Shown: positions 394-14,234 of the stretch, in pieces
How the letters are laid out: every line of letters begins with the position of its first letter
How positions within the stretch are numbered: the first letter of the stretch is position 1
DNA from: Cycloclasticus sp.
Lineage (GTDB): Bacteria; Pseudomonadota; Gammaproteobacteria; Methylococcales; Cycloclasticaceae
NCBI GenBank assembly: GCA_012959695.1
Contig: DUCS01000001.1
Span: 1 to 50,178 of the forward strand
DNA length: 50,178 nucleotides
Direction: 5' to 3'
Position numbers and translations under genes: made by a program
Notes under the pieces: model-generated
What the model saw: the letters and a program-made list of their open reading frames with translations, nothing else
Told to the model about the DNA's origin: nothing
Databases searched by the model: none

Positions 394-771
394 CCCACTT
401 TAGGGAATCAGGCGGTTACTATTGAGCGAATACGCGACCTTCGTGAGGTTGGTTTTTTAATCTCCATTGATGATTTTGGTACAGGCTATTCTTCATTAAA
501 CTATTTGAAAAACTTGCCTTTTGATCAGCTCAAAATTGATAGATCGTATATTCAAGGGATTGCCCAAAATGATAGCGACGCTGCGATTGTCAATATGATT
601 ATCAGTATGACGCATCACTTAGGTGCTAAATTAATTGCCGAGGGCGGGGAGACACAAGAACAACTGGATTACCTGCTTGAGAATGGTTGTAATGAATACC
701 AAGGCTACTTTTTCAGTAAGCCGCTGCCCGCTGATCAGTTCGTTACTTACGTGGAAAGTTTGGCAACGTAG
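394..771 (+). pseudogene. EAL-domain (c-di-GMP phosphodiesterase) C-terminal fragment
   Basis: The translated segment contains the EAL-family signature DDFGTGYSSL (from about 469), then LKIDRSYI, an AEGGET segment matching the family's AEGVET, and an ending like QGYFFSKPLPADQF. These are the second half of an EAL domain. The EAL motif itself and any GGDEF, PAS or membrane parts are missing, because the frame hits TGA at 391-393 and nothing EAL-like precedes it. An ATG at 505 could start an 88-residue peptide, but it would lack the catalytic DDFGTG residues. I regard it as a 5'-truncated remnant, probably left by an insertion or recombination near the tRNA-Ile scar. Confidence 0.8.
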
Positions 772-11497: not shown

Positions 11498-12385
11498 ATG
11501 AATGCTTTTTTATCTATTCCTGTCGGCGCTCGCTACATGATGCTAAGTGCTTTTGCTTTCAGCATTATGGCGTTATTTGTTAAACAAATTGGTTTATTGG
11601 GTATACCGGTGCTGGAAATGGTTGCGGCACGGTCCCTCGTGTCGTTGTTAATCAGTTATATAGCCATTAAACGACTAGGGATTGCCGTGTTAGGCAAACG
11701 TAAAGGCCTGTTGTTTGCGCGTGGCTTGGTGGGCTTTATTGCGCTCAATTGTGTGTTTTATGCACTCACGCATATGCCATTGGCTGAAGCGACGGTATTG
11801 CAGTATTTACACCCAATGGTTACCGTTATATTGGCCATGCTCTTTTTGAAAGAAGGCGCTACACAAGGCAGTTTGATTTGCATAGCGTTAAGTTTTGTTG
11901 GCCTACTTGTGATGGTGCAACCGCCGTTTATATTTTCATCCTCTACGGTTGAGTTTGATAATTTGGCGGTTATGGCCGCTATTGCAGGTGCTTTCGGCAG
12001 TGCAATTGCCTACACTTTGGTACGATCGTTAAATAAAAGCGAAGAGCCGTTAGTGATTATTTTGTATTTTCCTTTAGTGTCATTACCCATTAGCGTAGTG
12101 TTGCTGTGGAACGACTTTGTAATGCCCGAGGGAATGGCATGGTTATATCTGTTAGCGATAGGTTTGGCAACTCAAGTAGGACAGTGGGGTTTAACAAAAT
12201 CAATGCAAACAGAAACGGCGGGTAGGGCAACCAGCTTTTCTTATCTGCAAGTTGTGTTTGCTGTTGTACTCGGTTTTGTGTTTTATGATGAAGTGCCAAA
12301 CTTGAGTACTTTATTCGGCGCGGGCTTTATTATTGTGGCTGCGTTTATTAATGTTAGATGGAAAGCCAAGGTAACAACGATTTAA
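11498..12385 (+). CDS. DMT superfamily (EamA) transporter
   Basis: A 295-residue inner-membrane protein with about ten hydrophobic helices forming two EamA repeats; the first repeat ends near AEATVLQYLHPMVTVILAML (about 89-108), the second near GRATSFSYLQVVFAVVLGF. Such carriers export or import small metabolites (amino acids, SAM, nucleobases) in exchange for protons. The substrate cannot be read from the sequence. A GGGACG stretch precedes the ATG. Confidence 0.85.
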   Translation: MNAFLSIPVGARYMMLSAFAFSIMALFVKQIGLLGIPVLEMVAARSLVSLLISYIAIKRLGIAVLGKRKGLLFARGLVGFIALNCVFYALTHMPLAEATVLQYLHPMVTVILAMLFLKEGATQGSLICIALSFVGLLVMVQPPFIFSSSTVEFDNLAVMAAIAGAFGSAIAYTLVRSLNKSEEPLVIILYFPLVSLPISVVLLWNDFVMPEGMAWLYLLAIGLATQVGQWGLTKSMQTETAGRATSFSYLQVVFAVVLGFVFYDEVPNLSTLFGAGFIIVAAFINVRWKAKVTTI

Positions 12386-13076: not shown

Positions 13077-13355
13077 ATGGCAAAAGCATGTGCTCGGCAT
13101 ATATTGGTTAAAACTAAAGAGCAGGCCGAAAATATCAAACAACAATTAGCGAAGGGTGCAGATTTCGCCAAATTGGCTAAGAAGCATTCGCAATGTAATT
13201 CGTCAAAACGAGGCGGTGACCTCGGCGAATTCTCGCCCGGTAAAATGTTAAAGGCATTCGATAATGTGGTGTTTAAAAAGGCTGTTTTAACCGTGCATGG
13301 ACCGATAAAAACAAAGTTTGGCTACCATCTTATTGAAACGATTTATCGTTTTTAA
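13077..13355 (+). CDS. ppiC: Parvulin-type peptidyl-prolyl cis-trans isomerase
   Basis: A 92-residue single-domain parvulin, the same size as E. coli PpiC (93). Seen: CARHILVKTKEQAE at the start, FAKLAKKHSQCNSSKRGGDLGEF (family SxCxSxxxGGDLGxF), and the closing FGYHLIETIYRF with the conserved histidine. There is no signal peptide, so it is cytoplasmic. It catalyses proline isomerisation in folding proteins. Immediately downstream of and probably cotranscribed with the PqiA-domain gene. Confidence 0.93.
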   Translation: MAKACARHILVKTKEQAENIKQQLAKGADFAKLAKKHSQCNSSKRGGDLGEFSPGKMLKAFDNVVFKKAVLTVHGPIKTKFGYHLIETIYRF

Positions 13356-13409: not shown

Positions 13410-13436
13410 TAAAGTTTTAGTAATGGGGGCCGATAG
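13410..13436 (+). promoter_or_regulatory. FliA (sigma28) flagellar-type promoter
   Basis: TAAAGTTT (13410-13417), an 11-bp spacer and GCCGATAG (13429-13436) match the enterobacterial sigma28 consensus TAAAGTTT-N11-GCCGATAA at 15 of 16 positions with exact spacing. It lies 42 nt before the DUF5610-like gene. Confidence 0.8.
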
Positions 13437-13477
13437 TTCTAGCGTTAAGTACGAATTTTATATTTTTAGGAGGTGTT

Positions 13478-14092
13478 ATGCCTATTTCAATACAAGCAAC
13501 TCAGACTTCGTTTAATCAGGAGGTTAGAGGCTTAGCTAAAAGCGACACTAAAAAAGAAGACGGTCCAATCGATCCTGAAGTCTCAAAACTTGCGCGCGAA
13601 AAAGATACTGCGCAAAAACAGCTAAATGCTGCGATTCTCGAATCTACTATCAGCATTAGTGCGGCTGACTCACCCCAAGCATTGATTTTAAAAACTGCGC
13701 TTGAAGGTATCAATGAAGCGTTAAGCGCCACGTTAGGGGGTAACGCAATACAAAACGCGTACGACTCCGGTCTAGACGTTAGTCCAGGCGCGACAGCCGA
13801 CCGTATTGTGTCTTTAAGTACGGCTTTTTTCTCACAATATCAAACCGTACATACAGAGTTTTCTGATGATGTAAATGCTGCTCGAGCCGCATTCACTGAG
13901 GTGATTAGGGGCGGTATCGAAAAAGGTTTTGCCGAAGCTAGGGAGATACTAGGCGGGTTAAATGTTTTAGACGGCGATATCGCATCTAACATTGATAAGA
14001 CATATGACTTGGTGCAAAAGAAATTAAACGATTTTGCGAACCTTGTGAATGAATTGGTTGCAGAAAGTCCGGTCGATAACGAAGAAAGCTAA
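13478..14092 (+). CDS. DUF5610-like protein, predicted flagellar-regulon member
   Basis: A 204-residue soluble, largely helical protein without signal peptide, cysteine or membrane helix. The C-terminal half (ADRIVSLSTAFFSQYQTVH, RGGIEKGFAEAREILGGL, LDGDIASNIDKTYDLVQK) matches what I recall of DUF5610, whose function is not known to me. The N-terminal 45 residues are polar and low in structure. AGGAGG at 13468-13473 is a near-perfect ribosome site. A sigma28 promoter upstream and a terminator downstream make it a single-gene FliA-controlled unit, which points to motility, chemotaxis or flagellar export. That functional link is inference. Confidence 0.8.
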   Translation: MPISIQATQTSFNQEVRGLAKSDTKKEDGPIDPEVSKLAREKDTAQKQLNAAILESTISISAADSPQALILKTALEGINEALSATLGGNAIQNAYDSGLDVSPGATADRIVSLSTAFFSQYQTVHTEFSDDVNAARAAFTEVIRGGIEKGFAEAREILGGLNVLDGDIASNIDKTYDLVQKKLNDFANLVNELVAESPVDNEES

Positions 14093-14114: not shown

Positions 14115-14144
14115 TAAAAGGAGAGGTCTAACGTCTCCTTTTTT
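14115..14144 (+). terminator. Terminator after DUF5610-like gene
   Basis: AAAAGGAGA (14116-14124) pairs with TCTCCTTTT (14134-14142) around a 9-nt loop and runs into T residues, 23 nt after the stop. Confidence 0.88.
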
Positions 14145-14234
14145 ATTATCAGCATGACAATCTTAGTTCGATGAATCGCGCCATTATTTCTATAAAATTG
14201 TTGTGTTCTTAGGTGACCTGATAAAGGATGAGCA

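Follow-up and report, generated by a model that had tools for sequence, protein, structure and literature searches.

A candidate late-flagellar accessory family, DUF5610, and its probable relic in a Cycloclasticus genome

DUF5610 genes are very probably late-flagellar accessory genes in the close relatives of Cycloclasticus sp., as the comparison of their promoters and genomes suggests, and the copy described here is probably an orphan or relic of a lost sigma28 regulon rather than an active member of it. The copy lies in a window of 50,178 nucleotides, the whole stretch of DNA that was analysed, which is the entire contig C1 of a genome (G000) of 1.71 Mb in 44 contigs with a completeness of 80.3%. 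The case rests on comparison: on the promoter in close relatives, the co-occurrence of the gene with FliA, the depletion of Cys and Trp in its product and a missing syntenic flagellar block; from these we infer FliA-driven transcription itself, export and a role. In flagellated relatives DUF5610 would be transcribed by RNA polymerase with sigma28 from its own promoter, usually alone, and its product would be a substrate of the flagellar export apparatus with an unfolded N-terminus, ending outside the cytoplasm, either as part of the filament, attached to it or set free; the helical C-terminal domain would be its working part. The window's lineage would have lost the flagellum and been left with DUF5610 behind a promoter that has no reader. 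Taken as a whole (accessory late gene, export substrate, relic in the window's lineage), this best explanation has about an even chance of being right.

Few bacterial machines have been studied as thoroughly as flagella, but this family behind a late promoter has no assigned role. A survey of flagellar clusters would overlook its genes, which usually stand alone. DUF5610 is directly testable in culturable relatives by way of its promoter, its lack of Cys and Trp and its N-terminal motif, and the window may show a flagellar regulon in decay, with a promoter outlasting the machine.

The gene and its promoter in the window

The open reading frame at positions 13478–14092 (+) has no internal stop and encodes the short form of DUF5610, a protein of 204 amino acids with neither Cys nor Trp. 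Its assignment to DUF5610 in the preliminary description is borne out by a Pfam match (PF18433) of residues 65–186 (E 3.8e-33), which covers positions 2–117 of the 117 of the profile with 114.9 bits against a gathering cut-off of 26.4. The domain (13670–14035, +) is all-helical in the structure model, and an N-terminal FxxxVxxL motif (FNQEVRGL, residues 12–19; 13511–13534, +) can be read in the translation. Downstream, a possible terminator (AAAAGGAGA, a 9-nt loop and TCTCCTTTTTT; 14116–14145, +) was recognized by eye; a scan allowing loops of 3–8 nt listed none at this hairpin, whose loop has 9 nt. Upstream are genes for a PpiC-type rotamase (13077–13355, +) and an EamA transporter (11498–12385, +), both identified by domain match. 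The Pfam title records no function for DUF5610, neither "DUF5610" nor "PF18433" is mentioned in the open-access paper text searched, and within such searches the link between FliA and DUF5610 appears to be unpublished.

The gene is preceded by a sigma28-type promoter, claimed earlier as a match of 15 in 16 bases with exact spacing and confirmed at 13410–13436 (+). The −35 element TAAAGTTT (13410–13417, +) agrees in 8 of 8 bases and the −10 element GCCGATAG (13429–13436, +) in 7 of 8 with the sigma28 (FliA) consensus TAAAGTTT-N11-GCCGATAA; the spacing is 11 nt. The site had been placed 42 nt before both an AGGAGG and an ATG: this fits the ATG at 13478, which follows the −10 element after 41 nt, and does not fit the ribosome-binding site AGGAGG, which reads at 13468–13473 (+). 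In relatives, the FliA-driven transcript would start about 7–10 nt past GCCGCTAC.

When the window was shuffled 300 times with dinucleotides preserved and both strands were scanned, the mean number of chance matches per shuffle was 0.88 at 13 or more matches and 0.067 at 14 or more, and there were none at 15 or more; the real window has one site with at least 13 matches, the one scoring 15. Genome-wide, two further 15/16 sites were found in G000, both within open frames (540 and 250 codons), and with up to two mismatches there are 6 sites versus 4 with a reversed control pattern. Taken alone, the site of the window is therefore suggestive, and the presence of equally good sites inside long open frames makes a comparative test necessary. 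It is this comparison among relatives that carries the main weight of the promoter case.

Promoter conservation and co-occurrence with FliA

By DUF5610 protein, the closest relatives belong to Cycloclasticus, the first being the one that lives in symbiosis with Bathymodiolus heckerae, a mussel (79%), and the relatives span Cycloclasticus, Methylophaga, Methylobacter, Methylomonas, Psychromonas, Colwellia, Amphritea and others. Three samples were used: the best 80 of 193 relatives from a scan of a collection of named genomes, some of which are shared with the order set; the order set itself, with 201 genomes; and 369 genomes drawn from across the class. Two DUF5610 proteins, 63% and 55% identical to that of the window, come from contigs labelled Candidatus Nitrotoga (L047) and Nitrosomonas (L057).

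The comparison of upstream regions of DUF5610 orthologs, which the preliminary description had recommended, was carried out, and the site recurs in other genera. Among 77 DUF5610 genes (the best 80 of 193 relatives minus L053, L057 and L080, which failed the filter), 37 have a site with at least 13 matches, as against 3 of 786 other open reading frames of the same loci; with at least 12 matches the counts are 53/77 and 16/786. The L080 gene, which comes from Methylotuvimicrobium buryatense 5G, a motile and non-pathogenic relative that can be cultured, has a site of 13/16. When only one representative was kept per cluster of 65% identity, 23 of 33 genes retained a site with at least 12 matches. 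The sites also recur in position: among the best 80 of 193 relatives, 48 of the 56 sites with at least 12 matches fall 25–90 nt upstream of the chosen start, the individual distances being possibly off because the starts were chosen by rule. Positions C22, G23 and T25 of the 27-mer are invariant across 23 dereplicated sites from other genomes. That the match is coincidental and DUF5610 has no link to FliA is extremely improbable in the face of 37/77 versus 3/786 from the same loci, even though near-perfect matches do occur within coding frames of G000 and many relatives across the class have no site.

Within the window's genus, all nine DUF5610 genes have a site of 12–15 matches. The order set returned 30 DUF5610 loci, and 24 of them show an upstream site with 11-nt spacing that matches at 12 or more of the 16 bases. 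A longer architecture of about 400 amino acids also occurs in the order, and six of its nine genes have sites of 14–16 (the nine scores are 11, 11, 14, 14, 8, 15, 16, 14 and 14; the start of the gene scoring 8 looks misassigned). Farther away the picture thins out. The class draw contained 26 genomes with DUF5610, 25 of them above the cut-off, and among the 23 loci that were both new and above the cut-off, 9 score at least 12, including two with 15 and one with 16, these top scores coming from long or short forms; in the other 14 the site is weak or absent (below 12). The low-scoring loci include short forms in genomes that do have FliA (G277, G283, G389, G361 and G539). The link to the sigma28 regulon is firm in close relatives and patchy at greater distance.

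Co-occurrence with FliA, likewise recommended earlier as a check, was found as well. In the order, FliA is above the cut-off in 34 of 39 genomes with DUF5610 versus 88 of 162 without it (Fisher p 1e-4), and in the class in 21 of 26 versus 186 of 343 (p 0.013); these p-values ignore phylogeny, and the FliA status was taken from per-genome E-values. Within the genus the association is not significant (7/12 versus 2/6, p 0.62). DUF5610 is at most accessory, because it is missing from 88 of 122 FliA-containing genomes of the order and from 5 of 12 of the genus. A "motility component", as the preliminary description has it, would thus be an accessory one at most. In close relatives the proposed tie to the late flagellar regulon stands, both by recurrence of the promoter and by co-occurrence with FliA; it is not supported in the window's organism, in whose 80% complete genome no FliA above the family cut-off was found.

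DUF5610 also occurs without FliA, in G000, G027, G020, G069, G175, G253, G420, G432 and G515. In G420 and G432, with sites of 16 and 15, FliA may be absent from the assembly since these genomes are 82% and 90% complete. By contrast, the retention of DUF5610 in G253 (a single contig, 100% complete) and in G020, G069 and G175 (98–100% complete) counts against the best explanation; the sites of the FliA-less G020, G069 and G253 (97–100% complete) score 12, 12 and 10. It would fit a non-flagellar job, such as surface attachment, a function in the envelope or host contact, that is merely co-induced with flagella, because DUF5610 would then survive in lineages without flagella, including that of the window, where the copy is intact and fully conserved and no flagellar core genes were detected. 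Such a job is nevertheless improbable: four FliA-less genomes of the genus (G035, G043, G050 and G068, three at least 83% complete and one 73%) have no DUF5610, the copy in FliA-less G515 carries an internal stop, and that of G253 has lost the site and contains one Cys and one Trp.

A conserved neighbourhood of DUF5610 was sought and none was found, the commonest neighbour family being present at 16 of 80 loci; a stand-alone late-flagellar gene is therefore a fair reading. The earlier description of a gene without flagellar neighbours holds for the window too, where tblastn gave no match to flagellar genes. In these respects DUF5610 may be likened by description to MotV (VC1909/VF_1491) of Vibrio, which is a stand-alone motility regulator, monocistronic and outside flagellar clusters, with a domain of no assigned function (PMC8789113, PMC3948606). 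The two differ in that MotV, a binding partner of HubP, possesses a transmembrane helix, whereas none is apparent in DUF5610.

Composition, N-terminal motif and structure

The strongest new fact on DUF5610 is the absence of Cys and Trp. In 79 close DUF5610 proteins (16,068 amino acids; the best 80 of 193 relatives minus one fragment dropped for length) there is not a single Cys or Trp, and 17 long forms (6,898 amino acids) have no Cys and five Trp. Of ten short forms from across the class, eight have no Cys and two do; the copy with one Cys and one Trp in G253 belongs to a genome with neither FliA nor an MCP match. Neighbouring open reading frames of 150–260 amino acids contain 1.14% Cys and 1.46% Trp on average; 74 of 322 have no Cys and only 3 of 322 have neither residue. 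Among 47 neighbour families present at four or more loci, the only ones free of both are DUF5610 (15,645 amino acids) and two small families (511 and 420 amino acids).

Exported flagellar proteins tend to avoid Cys, and flagellar export substrates are typically free of Cys, with a disordered N-terminus and no cleavable signal. FlgM, FlaG, FliD and FliC belong to the late flagellar class, and in G013 these four, together with FlgL and FlgK, have neither Cys nor Trp, like DUF5610, which otherwise shows no sequence or fold similarity to the four that could be found and in most cases is located away from flagellar genes. One particular flagellin is stated to have no Cys (PMC7643111). Absence of Cys by itself does not prove export.

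Among the best 80 of 193 relatives, 54 carry the FxxxVxxL motif within their first 75 residues, compared with 1.6% of shuffled sequences. The motif starts mostly at residues 5–14, and two copies spaced 18–19 residues apart occur in 18 of the 80. Early flagellar substrates carry FxxxPhi as a gate-recognition motif. FxxxVxxL resembles it and would be part of an export or chaperone signal, the likeness being weak for a pattern this short. In the model of the short form (mean pLDDT 69.2), helices make up the stretch between about residues 66 and 187, and the pLDDT is 86–95 per ten-residue block over residues 101–190. The N-terminus is modelled with low confidence: residues 1–32 and 34–40 have a pLDDT below 50 from an alignment of only 27 sequences, which is compatible with disorder.

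On these grounds export is the likeliest fate of the DUF5610 product, although it falls somewhat short of an even chance, the main rival being a cytoplasmic accessory protein. Somewhat more tentatively still, the DUF5610 proteins of the Gammaproteobacteria might make up a class of late flagellar accessory proteins, exported and so far undescribed, of about 200 or about 400 residues, free of Cys and with a tandem FxxxVxxL signal for export or docking. As the rival has it, a cytoplasmic protein under sigma28 control would tune chemotaxis, the motor or export, its FxxxVxxL helix docking to a flagellar partner. Several observations are in keeping with such a protein: neither a signal peptide nor a membrane segment is apparent by eye in the 204-residue sequence, 18 of 80 relatives have two copies of the motif, a doubling that would suit a docking motif, the G013 gene adjoins a stretch of eight genes that by eye are chemotaxis genes, and cytoplasmic export chaperones are free of Cys too. 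FliS, FliT and FlgN have no Cys and one Trp each. However, CheR, CheV and a PilZ-like protein of G013 do contain Cys, and a cytoplasmic family in which 79 diverse members have neither Cys nor Trp would be unusual, so that a cytoplasmic DUF5610 is rather unlikely.

Among solved structures the sole match by sequence is CV_1783 from Chromobacterium violaceum (PDB 3sjr; profile E 6.4e-09), a protein whose function is not assigned. It is also the best Foldseek match, with a probability of 1.00 but an E of 0.0097 and about 20% identity to DUF5610; at E ≤ 0.001 Foldseek gave no match for the short or the long model, and no flagellar fold was matched. The architecture of about 400 amino acids (L143, L146 and L162–L170) has an extra region that is beta-rich in a low-confidence model (mean pLDDT 59.7). 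Pfam found no second domain above the cut-off in ten long forms (best DUF4367, 21.7 versus 22.1 bits), and NCBIfam gave only weak matches below the cut-off for four proteins.

Flagellar genes in the window's genome

In the 80.3% complete genome G000, FliA was not found (best match 94.9 bits versus a family cut-off of 189.6), and searches for FlhA, flagellin and the rod domain found none. FliA is likely absent. The preliminary description had named a genome lacking fliA as grounds for refutation, and as far as an 80% complete genome shows this is the case here, so that its tie of the gene to the late flagellar regulon is not supported in this organism. In G027, DUF5610, PpiC and EamA directly adjoin fliT, fliS, fliD, flaG, fliC, flgL, flgK, flgJ and flgI, which start directly past EamA (Pfam was used to check FliT and FlaG, and the remaining names were given by eye or come from searches for flagellin and the rod domain). 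The window keeps the DUF5610-PpiC-EamA side, with PqiA in between, and none of the genes from fliT to flgI. G027 itself has FlgM, FlgN, CheV-like and rod genes; FlhA and FliA were not found there, which may be an assembly gap.

A second flagellar region points in the same direction. In G047 a flagellar and chemotaxis block of 21.4 kb sits between SoxB-like and SucA-like genes. In G000 these genes, which are 86% (SoxB-like) and 86–89% (SucA-like) identical to those of relatives, are only about 0.8 kb apart (C41, L216:12915–13689), and this interval has no match to reference flagellar genes at E < 0.05; it contains a gap of 88 N, which leaves room for doubt on the loss of the block. The comparison thus suggests that the flagellum was probably lost in the window's genome, and the promoter of DUF5610 would be a relic there, because FliA, FlhA, flagellin and rod genes were not found and the syntenic flagellar block is missing.

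Two further genes of G000 have sigma28-like sites. A MotY gene (MotY_N 1.1e-35) is intact behind a 14/16 site (C21, L208:576–1730, −), and a chemoreceptor-like gene behind a conserved 14/16 site (C9, L207:1331–1720) ends after 129 amino acids, all of which align at 76% identity with the start of a longer G027 gene that includes the signalling domain. A reading of the latter as one gene in two pieces was rejected since only the 129-residue piece matches the G027 gene.

If the window's organism were motile, the 20% of its genome that is missing from the assembly would have to contain FliA and the flagellar genes, as the completeness of 80.3%, the intact motY behind its site and the four MCPs left might suggest. 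This is quite improbable, slightly more so than a non-flagellar job of the protein, given that all of the four flagellar families, which belong to two or more clusters, are lacking, that soxB and sucA are separated by 0.8 kb and not by 21.4 kb, albeit with the gap of 88 N, and that the MCP gene behind the 14/16 site is cut at 129 amino acids, the G027 copy being longer.

In the window's DUF5610 none of 53 near-invariant columns is changed (range over 27 sequences 0–13), which counts against the best explanation since a dead export substrate should decay in time. Its dN to G027 is within the range of the neighbouring genes (maximum-likelihood dN 0.136, dS 2.7); the synonymous side is saturated, and the loss of the flagellum could therefore not be dated. 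The protein does not appear to be decaying, and either the flagellum was lost recently or the protein may still be working. Near the end of the contig, at positions 400–771 (+) of the window, lies a fragment resembling the end part of a 997-residue protein of G023 (42% identity over 123 amino acids), in which an EAL domain can be recognized by eye.
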